Shown here piece by piece: positions 37,322 to 63,444 of a stretch of 64,000 bases of DNA. How positions within the stretch are numbered: position 1 is the first letter of the stretch; every line of letters starts with the position of its first letter. A program made the position numbers and the translations under genes. Below the pieces are notes generated by a model. The model was not told where the DNA came from, made no database searches, and saw only the letters and a program-made list of their open reading frames with translations. Origin of the DNA: Shewanella avicenniae (GTDB lineage: Bacteria; Pseudomonadota; Gammaproteobacteria; Enterobacterales; Shewanellaceae); the NCBI RefSeq assembly GCF_017354945.1, contig NZ_CP071503.1, positions 1,364,001 through 1,428,000 on the forward strand, written 5' to 3'.

Positions 37322-37676
37322 TGGTGGAGGCGGCGGGACTTGAACCCGCGTCCGAAAAACCTACGCTCAAGGCGCTACATGCTTAGTCTCTCTTTTATTT
37401 AACCGGTTGAACTCCGAAAGACAGGATTCCAAACGGTGAGTCCGGTACTGTTTCGCGGTTCACCCCCGAACAAGGTTCCCTCGCTAGCACGATGTAGGGT
37501 GACCATCTGATCCACTGCCCATGTGCGAGACGTGTGGTAGATGGCTAGCGGCATTAAGCGGCTAGAGCGTAGTTATCGTCGTTTGCAACTATAACTTTGC
37601 GGCTTTTTACGAGGCCAACCGCCCCTCGGCATGCTCCCGGAGTTTCGCGAATCCCGTCGAATCCAGAATCGCCCCC
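37322..37676 (-). ncRNA. ssrA: tmRNA (transfer-messenger RNA)
   Basis: About 355 nt. The 5' end GGGGGC pairs with GCCUCC of the 3' acceptor stem, which ends in encoded ACCA. The T-arm contains GGGTTCAAGTCCC. The conserved GGATTCGACGGGATT lies near the 5' end. The tag reading frame (37554-37586) encodes ANDDNYALAA then TAA, so with the charged Ala the tag would be A-ANDDNYALAA. With SmpB it rescues stalled ribosomes and marks their products for proteolysis. Boundaries were set by acceptor-stem pairing and could differ by a base. Confidence 0.96.
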
Positions 37677-56690: not shown

Positions 56691-56702
56691 TAAGAGGATT
56701 TG

Positions 56703-57599
56703 ATGTCATCAATTCTGAGTTTGGATGCGCTTAAGGTATTGGATGCTATCGATAAAAAGGGCAGCTTTGCGGCGGCAGCAGAGTCCTTATATCGAGTACC
56801 TTCCGCATTAACCTACACAGTACAGAAACTTGAGCAGGACCTCGGCAGCAAACTATTTGAACGTCATGGCACCCGCTCAATCTTGACCGATGCTGGGCAA
56901 CTGGTATTGGCCGAAGGGCGTGAGATTCTAGCCGCCGCCAGTCGCTTAGAAAACGCAGTACGCCAATTAGAAACCGGCTGGGAAACCAGTATTTCACTGG
57001 CGCTTGATACCGTATTAGCTGACGCGCCTCTGCTGGACGCCATCGCAAAATTCACCGAACTGGGCAAACAAGTCACTATCAACGTGAGTAAAGAAGCGCT
57101 CGGTGGCGGTTGGGATGCGCTGTATTCCAAGCGCGCCGACATTGCCATTGGCGTTTCTGGTGAACTGCCGCGCGGACAATATGAACTGGCCAAATTAGGT
57201 GAAGTGCAGTTTGTGTTTGCCATCGCACCGCAGCATCCACTTAACCAGCTCGACGGCGTGATCCCGATGGCTGCACTGCAGCAATATCCTGCTGTGGTGG
57301 TGGCTGATAGTTCGCAGGCATTGTCACAACGCTCCAGTGGTTTGTTTGCCAGTCGGCAGGTGATTCGAGTGTCGTCAATGCCCGATAAAATTGCCATGCA
57401 ACAGCGCGGCATCGGCGTTGGCTTTTTGCCCAAACACCTGATCAAGACTGAACTGAAAACGGGCAACTTGATTGCGCGAGAGGTCGAGCAACCACGGGAC
57501 TCGTTACCGCTTTACATGGCGTGGCGCAAAGGCGAGCAGGGCAAAGCGCTCAGTTGGTTTGTTGAACGGTTAACAGATGCGGATTGGGGCTTGGGTTGA
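56703..57599 (+). CDS. LysR-family regulator of the doxX-pirin operon
   Basis: The ATG at 56703 has AGGA 5 nt upstream (298 residues). The N-terminal winged helix-turn-helix is FAAAAESLYRVPSALTYTVQKLEQDLG-like (about residues 18-50), and the substrate domain follows. It is divergent from the doxX-pirin operon with two palindromes between them, matching the classical LysR arrangement. In E. coli the related yhaJ sits by pirin gene yhaK and responds to aromatic compounds; a comparable signal is inferred. Confidence 0.9.
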   Translation: MSSILSLDALKVLDAIDKKGSFAAAAESLYRVPSALTYTVQKLEQDLGSKLFERHGTRSILTDAGQLVLAEGREILAAASRLENAVRQLETGWETSISLALDTVLADAPLLDAIAKFTELGKQVTINVSKEALGGGWDALYSKRADIAIGVSGELPRGQYELAKLGEVQFVFAIAPQHPLNQLDGVIPMAALQQYPAVVVADSSQALSQRSSGLFASRQVIRVSSMPDKIAMQQRGIGVGFLPKHLIKTELKTGNLIAREVEQPRDSLPLYMAWRKGEQGKALSWFVERLTDADWGLG

Positions 57600-57849
57600 T
57601 AGCGGTTATTGGTATAGCTAAACGGGTTACGTTATCCCGCATAGGAACCATGTCGCTTTTTGCTCAGATGTTGAAAAATATGTCGCTTTTCACGCAGTGT
57701 TGGCCGTTGCGGTCGAAAAAATTTTTAATTGCTATCAGTAAGATAAATGCATAGATTGATGAATAATTAATCATGAAAAACGACATGATGCAGTGTGAAA
57801 TTACGACATCATGTCGTCTAATATACTGTTATGCACTCAAGGAGCTTTC
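57600..57849. other. Left flank of the cassette array
   Basis: No gene is seen. It holds the TGTCGCTTTT repeats (57651-57690), their inverted counterpart AAAAACGACA (57776-57785), the palindrome ACGACATCATGTCGT (57803-57817) and the first cassette core GTTATGC (57828-57834). A promoter for the cassettes should lie here or come from readthrough of the LysR gene. Confidence 0.6.
57651..57785. repeat. Possible insertion-sequence remnant with terminal repeats
   Basis: TGTCGCTTTT occurs at 57651 and 57681, exactly 30 bp apart; AAAAACGACA at 57776-57785 is nearly its inverse. Repeated end boxes of this sort occur in IS21-like elements. No transposase or target duplication is visible, so this is a low-confidence remnant call. 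Confidence 0.3.
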
Positions 57850-58140
57850 GTGCAAGAAGTAGATGATGAATTTTACAATCGGGCAGATGCACATATTCAT
57901 TTATCCAATGACCAAATAAGCGAGAAAATTGGTAAGGGAAAAGTTAGTGCATCTAATATGTATGCTACTGCTCGTTTCAATGCTTGGGTTAGCGCATGTG
58001 GTTGGCATTCAGGTAAAGAAATGGCAGCAGCTAAAGAAGAAACTCTAGAATATTTTGTTTCCGAGTATAGGAAAATGCTCGAAGAAAACCTTGACGATTA
58101 TATTCATAATTTTGAATCCTATATGGAGATAGGCAAGTAA
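57850..58140 (+). CDS. Cassette 1: DUF3144 family protein
   Basis: The GTG at 57850 has AAGGAG 5 nt upstream; an ATG at 57811 lies before the cassette boundary and is rejected. The 96-residue protein matches DUF3144: FYNRADAHIHLSND, KGKVSASNMYATARFNAW and EEYRKMLEENLDDYI-like VSEYRKMLEENLDDYIHNF. The family is small, uncharacterised and often seen in mobile cassettes. The cassette ends in attC1, whose R'' box starts just after the stop codon. Confidence 0.82.
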   Translation: MQEVDDEFYNRADAHIHLSNDQISEKIGKGKVSASNMYATARFNAWVSACGWHSGKEMAAAKEETLEYFVSEYRKMLEENLDDYIHNFESYMEIGK

Positions 58141-58141
58141 T

Positions 58142-58231
58142 GCATAACAAGGCCAAGCACAGTCGCCCAATGCAAAAAGCCGCATTGGGCTGGACCTCGC
58201 TATCGCTCGGCCCGTGTTGGCGGCGTTATGT
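58142..58231 (+). repeat. attC1
   Basis: R'' GCATAAC (58142-58148) and R' GTTATGT (58225-58231). The L boxes GCCAAGCAC and GTGTTGGC pair with one unpaired G, the typical extrahelical base of attC. The 90-nt site folds by inner complementarity. Confidence 0.88.
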
Positions 58232-58234
58232 GTA

Positions 58235-58585
58235 ATGAATAAAACTGAAGCCATTGAGAAAATAGAAATGTCTATTGCTGAAGGAGTACAATTGATTACT
58301 CCCAAAGGCATGACATACGAAGCGCACCTTAAAAGCATTACTGATACGTTGTTTGCTCATGTAATTGAGCCAATTGAAGCAACAATAGTAGGTGCGTCCT
58401 TTCCAGAATATGACCTTAAAAAATATAAAGTCTCAAAGGTTTGGGCTATTGCGCACATGGGAAATAACTGGCTTTTGACACTAGAGAATGAAAATGAGTT
58501 CGCACTAGGTTTTGGTGAGTCCGCAGATAATATTCTCATGCATGGCTTTTCATCATCAGATGCAATTGGAGAATGGTGTGCTTAG
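58235..58585 (+). CDS. Cassette 2: unrecognised 116-residue protein
   Basis: The ATG at 58235 lies 4 nt after the attC1 core. The protein is soluble-looking with no signal peptide. It begins NKTEAIEKIEMSIAEGVQLITPKG and ends SSSDAIGEWCA. The second half is strand-rich (VSKVWAIAHMGNNWLLTLENENEFALGFG). I do not recognise a family. As part of a gene cassette it was probably acquired horizontally and is AT-richer than the chromosomal genes. Confidence 0.75.
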   Translation: MNKTEAIEKIEMSIAEGVQLITPKGMTYEAHLKSITDTLFAHVIEPIEATIVGASFPEYDLKKYKVSKVWAIAHMGNNWLLTLENENEFALGFGESADNILMHGFSSSDAIGEWCA

Positions 58586-58591
58586 ACTCAC

Positions 58592-58669
58592 ACATAACAA
58601 GGCCAGCCAGCATCGCTCCCAGCGGTCGCTGGACCTCGTTGCACTCGGCCGCTGCTGGCGGCGTTATGT
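58592..58669 (+). repeat. attC2
   Basis: R'' ACATAAC and R' GTTATGT, with CACATAAC/GTTATGTG pairing perfectly. L boxes GCCAGCCAGC and GCTGCTGGC pair with one extra C. 78 nt. Confidence 0.9.
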
Positions 58670-58678
58670 GTAAATCAA

Positions 58679-59065
58679 ATGACAAGATTTGAGTTCAAAC
58701 CAAACAAAAAGAAAAGCGGCCGAAACCAATATGTTGGGTCGTGGGAAGAGAGTGCCTGTAAAGAAATTGATTTACCCTTTACAAAGGAGTCAATGGTCAC
58801 AGTTCTTACTTGGGCGATCGAAGAAGGTTCGCCATACACACACCAAGAAATAGCACACTGGTGTGATAGGTTTCATTTGTCATGTGAAGAACACGACAAT
58901 GACATAGCCCCCGCAATTATCGATGTTGCAGCTGACGTAGATGCCCAGTGGGACATGTACTTGTCAAACACATATAATCTTGAGCAGCTTCAGAGTTTAA
59001 AATACTCTGAAATTAGGTTGCCAGTTGAATGGTTCAAAGAATGGCTCAGCGACGTAAACACATAA
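58679..59065 (+). CDS. Cassette 3: unrecognised 128-residue protein
   Basis: The ATG at 58679 is 10 nt after the attC2 core. The protein has a basic N-terminus (FKPNKKKSGRNQ), then acidic segments (EEHDNDIAPAIIDVAADVD) and several Trp residues. No signal peptide or membrane helix is seen and I do not recognise the family. The stop codon lies inside the R'' box of attC3, a compact cassette layout. Confidence 0.75.
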   Translation: MTRFEFKPNKKKSGRNQYVGSWEESACKEIDLPFTKESMVTVLTWAIEEGSPYTHQEIAHWCDRFHLSCEEHDNDIAPAIIDVAADVDAQWDMYLSNTYNLEQLQSLKYSEIRLPVEWFKEWLSDVNT

Positions 59066-59132
59066 CAAGCAAAGGCAGCATCGCCCTTCGGGCTGGACGC
59101 GCTAACGCGCGCCGCTGCTTTGGGCGTTAGCC
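59060..59132 (+). repeat. attC3
   Basis: R'' ACATAAC (59060-59066) overlaps the stop of cassette 3. R' is GTTAGCC. L boxes CAAAGGCAGC and GCTGCTTTG pair with one extra G. 73 nt. Confidence 0.9.
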
Positions 59133-59144
59133 GAGGTTGAAAAA

Positions 59145-59699
59145 GTGCGTTACTTCTTCGTCGTATTTATGATTTTTAGTGTGAATGTGATGGCATCAGA
59201 GACTGTTGAATATCAAATTGACGCCACATTCATTGATGACAATGATTCATGGGCAATCATCGAGCCACTTTGGTGGACAGTAAGCATTTACGATGGCGAG
59301 AAAAAATACGAGCAAGATCTATCTAAATACAGCAAGAGCCAGAGATTAGTTTTTGCGTGTCATTGGTATATGTCTGAAGTTAACAATGGTGGGCACGATC
59401 AATTTTACTATAACAGCACCGGCATAGTATGGCGTGACGCAATTGAATGTTTCGATGCCATTGGAGCAACAGAGATATCAGAAATAATCAAAAGTTCAGC
59501 GACCAGGCTCGGTGGCTCCCCTAGCTTAGACAGAAATGAGAGGAATGAGGTTCTAGAAAAAATAGAGCCCAAATTTGATGATCTAGATGACCGGTTTTAT
59601 AAGCTAGAAAGTCAAATAGATATCGAGAAGTTGATAAAGGTATTTATTTCAAAAAGAAAAAGCGATTTTGTTTTCAACGGCAAGGTTTTAAAGCCATGA
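59145..59699 (+). CDS. Cassette 4: DMP19/DUF4375-like protein with predicted signal peptide
   Basis: The GTG at 59145 has GAGG about 8 nt upstream. Residues 1-17 form a signal peptide-like stretch (RYFFVVFMIFSVNVMA). The body contains VFACHWYMSEVNNGGHDQFYYNSTG and WRDAIECFDAIGA, the core of DMP19/DUF4375 proteins. DMP19 of Neisseria is a DNA mimic that binds a transcription factor. A secreted variant could have another target; that is inference. The 184-residue length fits the family. Confidence 0.75.
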   Translation: MRYFFVVFMIFSVNVMASETVEYQIDATFIDDNDSWAIIEPLWWTVSIYDGEKKYEQDLSKYSKSQRLVFACHWYMSEVNNGGHDQFYYNSTGIVWRDAIECFDAIGATEISEIIKSSATRLGGSPSLDRNERNEVLEKIEPKFDDLDDRFYKLESQIDIEKLIKVFISKRKSDFVFNGKVLKP

Positions 59700-59703
59700 A
59701 AGC

Positions 59704-59817
59704 GGCTAACAATCACAAGCAAGGGACCAAACTACGCTCCGCCAATTTGCGGTTCGCTTTGCTCACTTTACCGCAAATTGGCTCCGCTACGTTTGGCCCC
59801 TGTTGTGGGCGTTATAT
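59704..59817 (+). repeat. attC4
   Basis: R'' GGCTAAC and R' GTTATAT. The long 114-nt site contains a long inner inverted repeat (CGCCAATTTGCGG pairing with CCGCAAATTGGCTCCG). Confidence 0.85.
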
Positions 59818-59838
59818 TCACTAAATCAGCAGGACGCT

Positions 59839-60453
59839 ATGAACTCATATCTTGATGAACACTTCCCAAATTTAAAAATCGAAAAACCACTGTTTTACAA
59901 TTGGCCCATTGGGTTGAGGTTTGAGATTGGCCCCGATGAAATTGAATTATGCGAAGAATATTTTGAAACGGCTCACAAGCGCGCCGTAACGATATTTGAA
60001 TTTGTTTTCAGCCAAGGTGATGAAATAGAAATTATTTATCAACAATACTCTGATGGACGAAAAAAAATAAGAAAAGGCAATTTCATATACAAGCAAATTT
60101 CCTTGAAACAAAAAGAACAAGTGCATTGTTCAGACATTAGAGATATTTATGAGCTTGAGTACAAATGTGAATGCTGGAAGAGATTAAATATTTTCAACCT
60201 TAAAATAGAAGATATTGACTATAAAAATATCTTACTCTCATTAGTCAATACAGACTTTGGAAGCAGGAAACCCTCCATGAGGGGGGAGTGCTACTTTATT
60301 AATCGCACTAAAAGCGTCATTTTGAACTTGTATGATGACAGAGGTATGGATGTAATAAGTGCGACAAAGGAAAGTTTATTGCCACTCTATAAATATAAAA
60401 ATGAATGGCTACTAGATTATGATCGCGAGAAAATGAATTCGGTATTCTCGTGA
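59839..60453 (+). CDS. Cassette 5: DUF3885 family protein
   Basis: The ATG at 59839 has AGGA upstream; the frame opens earlier but lies in attC4. The 204-residue protein begins NSYLDEHFPNLKIEKPLFYNWPIGLRFE and ends with YFINRTKSVILNLYDDRGMDVIS, the signature of DUF3885. Members are soluble proteins of unknown function, common in cassettes and polymorphic toxin neighbourhoods. An immunity-like role is possible but unproven. Confidence 0.8.
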   Translation: MNSYLDEHFPNLKIEKPLFYNWPIGLRFEIGPDEIELCEEYFETAHKRAVTIFEFVFSQGDEIEIIYQQYSDGRKKIRKGNFIYKQISLKQKEQVHCSDIRDIYELEYKCECWKRLNIFNLKIEDIDYKNILLSLVNTDFGSRKPSMRGECYFINRTKSVILNLYDDRGMDVISATKESLLPLYKYKNEWLLDYDREKMNSVFS

Positions 60454-60558
60454 ATATAACAAGGCCATTATGGCAATTGGACGCAAAACGCTTGGCTTGC
60501 GCTCCTTCGTCGCTAAGTTTAGCCAAGCATTTGTGCGCCCCATATGGCGGCGTTATAA
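60454..60558 (+). repeat. attC5
   Basis: R'' ATATAAC and R' GTTATAA. L boxes GCCATTATGG and CCATATGGC pair with one extra T. 105 nt. Confidence 0.88.
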
Positions 60559-60574
60559 GCCATAGGAAAGATCG

Positions 60575-60925
60575 GTGTCCAAATCGTTAATAGGCAGACT
60601 CGACGTACTCAGCGTTTTTATCGCGTGGTCTCTTTTGATCGCATTCTTTCTAGCGCTGGGTTACGGTAAATTTTTCGCTCCACCGGAGGCTAGTGCGGGT
60701 CATTTGGTATACATCTTCGGTGCTTTTCTTGGCGCTTTAGTAGTACATATTGTGTTGGCATTGTTTAATCGTTGCCCTCACTGCAATAAGTGTTTAACCG
60801 TTCAAGGGTTTAAACCTCCACATCCAGCATCAAGCGGTGATTGGACAAAAGTGGTTTGGCATTGGTTCTCAGGCTCTATAGTCTGTATTCATTGTGGGCA
60901 ACGGGTAAATACAAATGGCTTATAA
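60575..60925 (+). CDS. Cassette 6: membrane protein with C-terminal zinc ribbon
   Basis: The GTG at 60575 has AGGAAAG upstream. The 116-residue protein has two membrane helices (about 11-31 and 44-64) and a C-terminal four-cysteine ribbon, CPHC (about residues 68-71) and CIHC (about 102-105), that could bind zinc. No specific family is recognised. The stop lies within the R'' box of attC6. Confidence 0.72.
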   Translation: MSKSLIGRLDVLSVFIAWSLLIAFFLALGYGKFFAPPEASAGHLVYIFGAFLGALVVHIVLALFNRCPHCNKCLTVQGFKPPHPASSGDWTKVVWHWFSGSIVCIHCGQRVNTNGL

Positions 60926-61018
60926 CAAGTTGCTTAATTTCGTTCCGGCCACAAACAGCGTGGCCTCCATTGGACTGCCTACGCTTCGCTGCGGCAGCCA
61001 ATTTGCAAAGCGTTATGT
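60920..61018 (+). repeat. attC6
   Basis: R'' TTATAAC and R' GTTATGT. L boxes are less exact (TTGCTTAATT against AATTTGCAA). 99 nt. Confidence 0.8.
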
Positions 61019-61036
61019 TTCTCGTTGAATTCGACT

Positions 61037-61513
61037 ATGTTTGGTAAATGGAAGAAAGTGGAAGAGCAAGAGGTTAAAATCGAACTTCCTGAAGAATCTT
61101 ATGCATTACTGAAATGGAAAGAGAACGATCTTCCCTGCATCGCAATGCTTAACTCTGCGTTAAAGAAATTTACTCACAAGGAAATATTTGCCTGGCATTT
61201 GACGGTTACGATTGAATTCGAAGAACTAATAGATAATGGAATGCCTTCTATCGAAGAGCGAGAAATAGTCGACCCGTTTGGTGATAAGTTAGAGAACGAA
61301 ATAAAAGCAGGCGGCAATGCTCTTTTTTTAATTCGAGAGACTTGGAATGGCACAAGATGCCTAGTTTGGCGTGTCTATGATCCTGGTATAGCCAACCAAC
61401 ATCTAGAATATTTGGCAAACAATTTTCAATACCCCAGACAATTCAACTGGCATATGTCGCATGACCCTGAGTGGGGGAAAGCTAAGTGGTATTTTGAACA
61501 ATTAGAAACATAA
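61037..61513 (+). CDS. Cassette 7: DUF695-like protein
   Basis: The ATG at 61037 gives 158 residues; a TTG at 61025 would add four. The body has LIRETWNGTRCLVWRVYDPGIANQHLEYL and ends with WHMSHDPEWGKAKWYFEQLE, resembling the DUF695 family of soluble proteins. The function is unknown. No strong ribosome-binding site is seen. The cassette ends with attC7. Confidence 0.65.
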   Translation: MFGKWKKVEEQEVKIELPEESYALLKWKENDLPCIAMLNSALKKFTHKEIFAWHLTVTIEFEELIDNGMPSIEEREIVDPFGDKLENEIKAGGNALFLIRETWNGTRCLVWRVYDPGIANQHLEYLANNFQYPRQFNWHMSHDPEWGKAKWYFEQLET

Positions 61514-61621
61514 CAAACCACTGTAGTCGCCCGCGAGCGGGCTGGGACAAATACACGTAGGCTCAGTCGCTTCGCTCCAATTTTAGCCTACGTGTATTTG
61601 CCCCTAAGTGGGGCGTTACCA
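61508..61621 (+). repeat. attC7 (last site, with non-matching core)
   Basis: R'' ACATAAC and R' GTTACCA. L boxes CCACTGTAG and CTAAGTGGG pair with one extra G. The final core does not match its own R'' box, as expected if its last six bases come from the original target. 114 nt. Confidence 0.85.
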
Positions 61622-61648
61622 GATTCTTCATCGTCACAGCCAAGACGT

Positions 61649-61683
61649 AAAAAGCCGCTTTTCAAGATAACAAAGCGGCTTTT
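61649..61683. terminator. Bidirectional terminator to the right of the array
   Basis: AAAAGCCGCTTT pairs with AAAGCGGCTTTT across a 10-nt loop. It ends the cassette transcripts and the convergent nucleotidase gene. Confidence 0.8.
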
Positions 61684-61716
61684 CACTATTTATCACTACT
61701 TGATTCCAGCGACCAA

Positions 61717-63444
61717 CTAGCTATTGCGATGGCTGATGTAATTCACCGTGGGCATGGCAGGTTCCAGCAGAATATCATCATGGCTTAGCATGCGAATAAA
61801 GGCGCCGGGTAGGGTGACGTGCTCAAGCGATTGTTGCCACTCGGCGTTTAGCAGCGCGTCGTAACCCTCTTTGCCACTGGTGGTGTAGCTGGTGGACACG
61901 CCGACATAATATTCTTCGGTAACGATTTCATACCAGCAGCCATCATCTTTCAGCAGTTCTAATTTGACGATACGTTCGCCCATTGGCTGACGGCCATCAT
62001 AGAAGTAACGCAAACGGTGGGTGTACGGGAAACTGCCTGCGCCTGTGCCCATCACACTGTTGTTGGTGGCTTCGTTAATGGCGGATTCCAATACTTGTTT
62101 GAGATGAACGCCCTGAATTTCATAGCACACTAAAGGCAAATCAAACGGTAGCAACCGCCCCATAATATCGCCAAGGGTAACTTGCCCTTGCTCTAATGAT
62201 TGGCGCACGCCACCGGCGTTGTGTAGCGCAAAATGCAAGCTGGGCAACTGCTCTCTGGCGGCCAGAAACATACTTTGGCTGACCAGTGGCGCTATCTCGC
62301 TGCCATGCGGTAAACGCTGGCTAGGTAACCGCGTATGCGCCAAGGTGCGCGGCACCATCGCTAATACCTGCTGCTCCATTGAACTGACGGCGGGACGAAA
62401 TTCGTGGTCGATAATCGCTTTAAGCTGTTCATCTTGCTCATCCCATAGAATCCCAGGATGTTGATGCAGCAGTTCAGTGGCGTCGCGATAATCTTGCTCA
62501 GTAGCAGCGGTATCGCCACTCAGCAAAAAGTGGCGATCGAGCATTAAACAGCTGCTGCCGCTTAATTGGGTTACTTTGCCCAAGGCATCAAATTCAAGTT
62601 CGGCAATCCCCAGCGCTTCGGCATGTTTGCCTGCTTGCAACACCGGCACGCCATTCACGGTTTCACCATACGGTACGCACGGCAAGCCAAACTCGGTAAA
62701 GTCGCCCATCAGGGTGTGGGTATGTCCGCCAACAATCACACTGATGCCGTCAACTTCCGCTGCAAGATGTTTATCCATCTCATAGCCCAGATGACTTAGC
62801 ACAATGATGTGGTGGACGCCTTGTTGCTTGAGATGCTTGATAGTGTTTGCCACCGTCTCAAACGCGGGTAAAAATTCAGTATCTGCATCGGGGCGGGCAA
62901 CGCGCTTCATCTGATCCAGCGTTACGCCAATAATCGCCAGTTGGGTATTGTAGAACGGCTTGAGCAGGTATTGGCCAATCCCTTGGGCATTATCGAACTT
63001 AAGTAGGTTTGGCAGCGGCGCTAATGCGCCAACTTTATCAGCGGCTTCAGCCGATAAATCCATATTGGCGGCCATCACCGGAAACGACACCTTGGCGATA
63101 AAATTTGCCAAGGTGGCATTGCCATCATCGATATCGTGATTGCCAATGACCATAGCGTCAGGGCTGAGGTAGTCCAACACGCGAGCGTTGGCTTGCCCTT
63201 TAAATTGGCTGTAAAACAGGGTGCCATGAAAACTATCGCCACCATGCAAAAACAACATTTCCTGTTGCTGCTGTGCTGCTTGCTCACGTAATTGCTGTAC
63301 TTGCGCTGCAATACGTGGGTAGCCACCACTATGGCTGGCCAAACTAAATTGAGTTTGGTTTAGCTGAATTTTTAGTCGGACTAAGCTGGCATCAAAATGG
63401 GAATGAGTGTCGTTGATGTGGGCAAGTGTTAATCGATAATTCAT
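61717..63444 (-). CDS. 5'-nucleotidase/UshA-like metallophosphatase without signal peptide
   Basis: A 575-residue two-domain enzyme. The metal site is DTHSHF (about 12-17), GGDSFHG, GNHDID, VLSHLGYE and GGHTHT, all in the expected order. The C-terminal substrate domain contains NAGGVRQSLEQGQVTLGDI and YTTSGKEGYDA. It lacks a signal peptide and starts MNYRLTLAHINDTHSH, so it is probably cytoplasmic. GAGG lies 6 nt before the ATG. The family hydrolyses nucleotides, UDP-sugars or cyclic nucleotides; the substrate is not decided here. Confidence 0.88.
   Translation of the reverse strand: MNYRLTLAHINDTHSHFDASLVRLKIQLNQTQFSLASHSGGYPRIAAQVQQLREQAAQQQQEMLFLHGGDSFHGTLFYSQFKGQANARVLDYLSPDAMVIGNHDIDDGNATLANFIAKVSFPVMAANMDLSAEAADKVGALAPLPNLLKFDNAQGIGQYLLKPFYNTQLAIIGVTLDQMKRVARPDADTEFLPAFETVANTIKHLKQQGVHHIIVLSHLGYEMDKHLAAEVDGISVIVGGHTHTLMGDFTEFGLPCVPYGETVNGVPVLQAGKHAEALGIAELEFDALGKVTQLSGSSCLMLDRHFLLSGDTAATEQDYRDATELLHQHPGILWDEQDEQLKAIIDHEFRPAVSSMEQQVLAMVPRTLAHTRLPSQRLPHGSEIAPLVSQSMFLAAREQLPSLHFALHNAGGVRQSLEQGQVTLGDIMGRLLPFDLPLVCYEIQGVHLKQVLESAINEATNNSVMGTGAGSFPYTHRLRYFYDGRQPMGERIVKLELLKDDGCWYEIVTEEYYVGVSTSYTTSGKEGYDALLNAEWQQSLEHVTLPGAFIRMLSHDDILLEPAMPTVNYISHRNS

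Follow-up and report, generated by a model that had tools for sequence, protein, structure and literature searches.

Seven integron cassettes behind an attI site with no adjacent integrase gene, probably one platform of a dispersed attI family in Shewanella

A 4.1 kb insert containing seven integron cassettes was found in the 64 kb window (the whole stretch of DNA analysed here; C1:1364001–1428000) of a 4.20 Mb single-contig genome (G000) from a Shewanella related to S. mangrovi. Judged from its sequence, the array appears to start at a genuine attI, yet without an integrase gene, and it is probably one attI-led platform in a network of many attI sites, loaded by an integrase that is encoded elsewhere. 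The weight of the finding lies on this dispersed attI platform and not on the cassette genes, where the earlier note on this DNA had placed it.

The insert separates a gene for a LysR-type regulator from a 5'-nucleotidase-like gene (Table 1). In genome G029 and in S. fodinae these two genes were found directly adjacent, indicating that the insert is an addition; the sequences are too diverged to give its exact ends. The locus is occupied by other genes in S. mangrovi. Elsewhere in the window, a tmRNA gene is present at 37322–37676 on the - strand (Rfam RF00023, 238 bits).

Table 1. The array and its neighbours, in window positions; bits are scores of the attC covariance model.
Feature	Position	Strand	Details
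LysR-type regulator gene	56700–57599		left neighbour of array
attI unit without intI, type A	57651–57831	+	82% identity to attI at intI pseudogene, L009:9792–9612
Seven-cassette array	57829–61615	+
Cassette 1	57829–58225	+	DUF3144 protein 57850–58140 (PF11342, E 3e-30); attC1 58142–58231, 33.7 bits
Cassette 2	58226–58663	+	116-aa protein 58235–58585, without family match; attC2 58592–58669, 35.6 bits
Cassette 3	58664–59126	+	128-aa protein 58679–59065, without family match; attC3 59060–59132, 41.9 bits
Cassette 4	59127–59811	+	DMP19-like protein 59145–59699 (PF14300, E 8e-26); attC4 59704–59817, 43.4 bits
Cassette 5	59812–60552	+	DUF3885 protein 59839–60453 (PF13021, E 4e-51); attC5 60454–60558, 28.9 bits
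Cassette 6	60553–61012	+	116-aa protein 60575–60925, without significant family match; attC6 60920–61018, 21.5 bits
Cassette 7	61013–61615	+	DUF695 protein 61037–61513 (PF05117, E 6e-10); attC7 61508–61621, 29.1 bits
3' flank past last G↓TT (TTACCAGATTC...)	61616–61716	+	sequence up to end of convergent 5'-nucleotidase-like gene
5'-nucleotidase-like gene	61717–63444		convergent; right neighbour of array

All seven attC sites were recovered by a covariance model whose training set of 14 Shewanella attC sites included three from other arrays of G000 and none from the window, and the only additional match to the model in the 64 kb window was weak (15.8 bits, E 0.33). The seven-cassette array reported in the earlier note is therefore real, and the covariance search, which that note had named as a possible refutation, accepted every site. 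Bottom-strand DNA was found to fold better than shuffles in six of the seven (z −2.3 to −5.6), the fold of attC6 being weak against shuffles (z −1.1). In each cassette, as had been claimed, the R'' box is the exact reverse complement of the core that opens the same cassette (cassettes 1 to 7 in order: GTTATGC and GCATAAC, GTTATGT and ACATAAC, GTTATGT and ACATAAC, GTTAGCC and GGCTAAC, GTTATAT and ATATAAC, GTTATAA and TTATAAC, GTTATGT and ACATAAC). Such matching would follow if every cassette had come in as a circle and been opened at G↓TT (the arrow marks the crossover point), and the argument for insertion cassette by cassette holds on the strength of all seven pairs. The statement that the attC sequences differ greatly was borne out in part, as attC1 and attC2 have a common end of 30 nt that is 90% identical. 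Near-identical copies of cassettes 4 and 6 occur in other G000 arrays.

Pfam confirmed the DUF3144, DMP19, DUF3885 and DUF695 assignments made from the sequence, and three proteins are without a convincing family; for one of these, encoded by cassette 6, only a sub-threshold zinc-ribbon match was obtained. Pfam and PADLOC searches of the seven proteins predicted no function beyond families without known function. The sole PADLOC match, of the cassette 1 product to JetA, was weak and partial (26 residues, E 0.005) and was judged to be due to chance.

The unit that precedes cassette 1 is homologous to the interval that separates intI from the first cassette in another G000 integron (L009). It includes direct repeats near 57650 and 57680 plus further partner repeats, and its core, CGACATCATGTCGTCTAATATACTG↓TTA, is located at 57804–57831 with the crossover point between G57828 and T57829. 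When it was aligned with 15 related sites, hexamer-like blocks were found to be conserved. The 82% identity to an intI-linked attI, together with this layout, argues that a true attI, with no integrase gene, stands at the head of the array. The homology to L009 stops just before the L009 intI promoter and a LexA-like box, both read from the sequence, and no intI lies in the 51 bp that separate the LysR stop codon from the window attI. A nearby intI combined with a standard attI directly upstream of 57828 had been named in advance as something that could overturn the original reading; the attI is present and had been overlooked, but intI is not nearby. Of the components of a complete integron, the window thus has an attI at the head of the array and insertion exactly at G↓TT, and has no intI beside the attI. 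A promoter scan of the unit gave no sigma-70 match on the + strand, and a cassette promoter within it is putative.

A genome search with TIGR02249 identified two intI genes in G000, at C1:1681845 and C1:2702859, the nearest being ~256 kb from the array; both are outside 1364001–1428000, in agreement with the report that the window contains none. The type A intI (C1:1681845; L009:9837–10817) is a pseudogene with one in-frame TGA; the related gene in G029 is intact. The reading frame of the type B intI (C1:2702859) is open, and this gene is located inside a prophage. The prophage with this intI, the only intact one in G000, and its array (L011:9000–20000 and L012:1–12000; G000 C1:2692000–2715000) has its type B integron between genes for head protease and major head protein and those for head morphogenesis, portal and terminase. 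This arrangement closely resembles that of the integron-bearing Shewanella prophage M16-3.

The type A core pattern was found in seven copies in G000, and a reversed control gave none. A second pattern, type B (CGCATGCGCAC[TG]AATAAnnTG↓TT), has the same architecture in different letters and was found in five copies, again with none in the control. G000 therefore contains 12 attI sites of two types, and only two of these adjoin intI, one broken by the stop codon and the other intact in the prophage. The 24 attC matches in G000 (E up to 1) all follow one of the 12 attI sites, at most 10 kb downstream and on the same strand, where 0.34 would be expected; attC was not detected at three of the 12. 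In six other genomes, 95 of 127 attC matches were located behind attI in the same way (~1.3 expected), and part of the remaining 32 adjoin attI copies that were detected by BLAST alone (G011 C2:1417043 and 1657888).

Across the genus, the type B attI is a dispersed repeat with 249 matches in 52 of 129 Shewanella genomes and up to 16 copies per genome (three matches in all in controls). Several genomes, G112, G020, G056 and G083 among them, carry 7–16 type B copies each and no intI match at E 1e-60 or better. Outside Shewanella the type is rare: it was matched in five of ~230 genomes sampled from other genera of the order, and it is also present on some plasmids of enterobacteria and on replicons of Pseudoalteromonas. 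Two conjugative enterobacterial plasmids carry type B attI units that lack intI and directly precede known resistance genes: in Moellerella pNX2019-MW2 (L176:3646) a dfrA1 cassette whose complementarity is 7/7 and whose attC is strong, and in the IncC plasmid pN069_1 (L175:3646) fosG. The dispersed type B units share ~390 bp of upstream sequence, ~590 bp in some, and often lie beside hairpin repeats. Hairpin repeats with ATCCAT loops were seen on both sides of several platforms (L085, L089, L141, L146 and L098 flanks), and might mediate platform movement. In type B units L111–L128, the place of intI, at about −390 to −145 from the attI G, is taken by a short conserved stretch together with a LexA-like box (CTG-N10-CAG); this stretch may represent an SOS-controlled small transcript or leader. 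No clean empty site for a dispersed attI was found, and the place in G051 orthologous to L152 contains other DNA, with neither a clean boundary nor a target duplication seen.

Use of these sites was examined with a strict cassette test and controls, as a looser walk called a cassette at 41% of random GTT sites. Among the 33 type B sites inspected, which include a few beside intI, 19 lead into a cassette that has a strong attC stem and 7/7 complementarity, compared with 1.5–6% of random GTT sites. At orthologous attI loci in G039 and G051, and in G000 and G052, the flanks are about 79–96% similar and the cassettes are mostly different. In five G039/G051 pairs the left homology ends at the attI GTT and the right homology restarts at the last GTT; in one example, GCGTTAACTCATAG resumes after two unrelated attC sites. 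Breaks in homology at G↓TT on both sides are the mark that site-specific insertion leaves at each end. The site family in sister genomes thus shows what is expected of a functional attI, namely insertion at G↓TT and different cassettes at orthologous loci.

Cassette 4 including its attC is 100% identical over about 688 bp (583 + 106 bp) to a copy in the array with the intact intI (L012), and cassette 6 differs by ~4 bases from a copy in the array with the intI pseudogene (L009), including two mismatches in 373 bp. Cassettes thus appear to circulate between platforms. In the L012 and L009 copies a group II intron, lying antisense to the cassette, interrupts the attC, and the window copies are intron-free. 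The possibility that cassettes 4 and 6 are chimeras with swapped attC sites, raised by a BLAST break at R'', was rejected because Rfam identified the gap in the other copies as this intron. One group II intron, in four full copies and one truncated copy, was found in attC sites antisense to cassettes (L009:6813–8758, near L009:3559–3628, L012:2683–4628, L012:5171–7110 and L089:4425–6263), and the window copies of two of these attC sites, being intron-free, provide the exact sites before and after its insertion (TTGT↓TA, the arrow here marking the intron position). Group II introns in attC have already been reported for Shewanella (PMC9229058).

In the explanation that we consider probable, an attI unit of ~180 bp without intI would have become seated between the LysR-type and 5'-nucleotidase-like genes, and circular cassettes would then have entered it one by one at G↓TT. 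The integrase could have been the type A IntI before its stop codon arose, or the intact type B IntI now in the prophage, acting on the window attI in trans. A point against such loading is that the type A integrase, the one matching the window attI, is encoded by a pseudogene in G000. The window would be one of 12 platforms in G000, with the same layout repeated across the genus, and the location of the array at a true attI, one of many scattered copies, explains how cassettes accumulate far from an integrase. Extending this to Shewanella as a whole, we lean towards a distributed integron, in which attI elements without intI (~180 bp for type A and ~390 bp or more for type B) spread to up to 16 copies per genome and to plasmids and are loaded in trans by a few, sometimes prophage-borne, integrases. 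The CALINs and orphan cassettes of the genus would then be mainly platforms of this network and not decayed integrons.

A complete integron at the window locus from which intI was later deleted locally, with attI and cassettes staying behind, would also produce an attI without intI, and the type A intI elsewhere in G000 is already broken. However, this origin is unlikely, as no intI remnant was found in the short interval between the LysR stop codon and the attI, and the left ends of type A homology coincide at unrelated loci. The sequence common to the dispersed type B copies, which has something different in the place of intI, indicates spread without intI, and the 129 Shewanella genomes contain fewer than 100 intI against the 249 type B attI matches.

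The near-identical copies of cassettes 4 and 6 elsewhere in G000 could suggest that attI and the whole array reached this locus in one piece, copied from another G000 array through homologous recombination or transposition. This is very improbable, as the two cassettes trace to two different arrays and are not neighbours in the window, identity is restricted to whole cassettes and stops at their boundaries, where the R' tails differ, and the window attI itself is only 82% identical to its relative. Insertion of free cassettes at a chance core-like genomic site (attG), with growth of the array there, is reportedly a route by which CALINs arise, but it is the least credible origin for this array, as its 5' side shows 180 bp of homology to an intI-linked attI, repeats included, and is not a bare core site, and all G000 attC sites sit behind attI sites.

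The label CALIN, given to the array in the earlier note, agrees with the software definition (at least two attC, no intI nearby), but an attI is present upstream and the genome carries two intI. The array resembles the IntegronFinder class of this name in having two or more attC on one strand with no neighbouring intI, and differs in being headed by a genuine attI from a dispersed family. IntegronFinder looks for attI in class 1 only (PMC9024848), and dispersed attI sites are not among the features that standard software looks for. Surveys record CALINs about as often as complete integrons (PMC9024848), and the finding that most intI-distant attC sites in Shewanella appear to lie behind dispersed true attI sites bears on whether they originate by decay or by chance insertion. 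It also opens trans-acting capture of cassettes at many chromosomal sites to direct testing, with up to 16 loci per genome able to change by cassette insertion.

A search of the open-access literature, with subscription papers and preprints outside its scope, returned no description of the dispersed attI family. A 2022 survey of the same genus found CALINs and orphan cassettes in most Shewanella, with many attC far from intI, and called the number of distal attC peculiar (PMC9229058). The CALINs and SALINs of that survey have up to six attC per CALIN and were not linked to attI, whereas the window array has seven and an attI. The chromosomal integron of S. oneidensis (SonIntIA; Drouin et al. 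2002, as cited in PMC9892861) has an attI core of the same family as the type B sites of G000, but its attI adjoins intI, whereas the window platform has a type A attI and no intI. In a 2023 paper, a Shewanella-type attI, with a type B core, heads one CALIN in prophage M16-3 and so starts an array without an intI of its own (PMC9892861). That is a single case beside a complete integron in one prophage, whereas here 12 sites of two types occur in the single genome G000, alongside a repeat found genus-wide.
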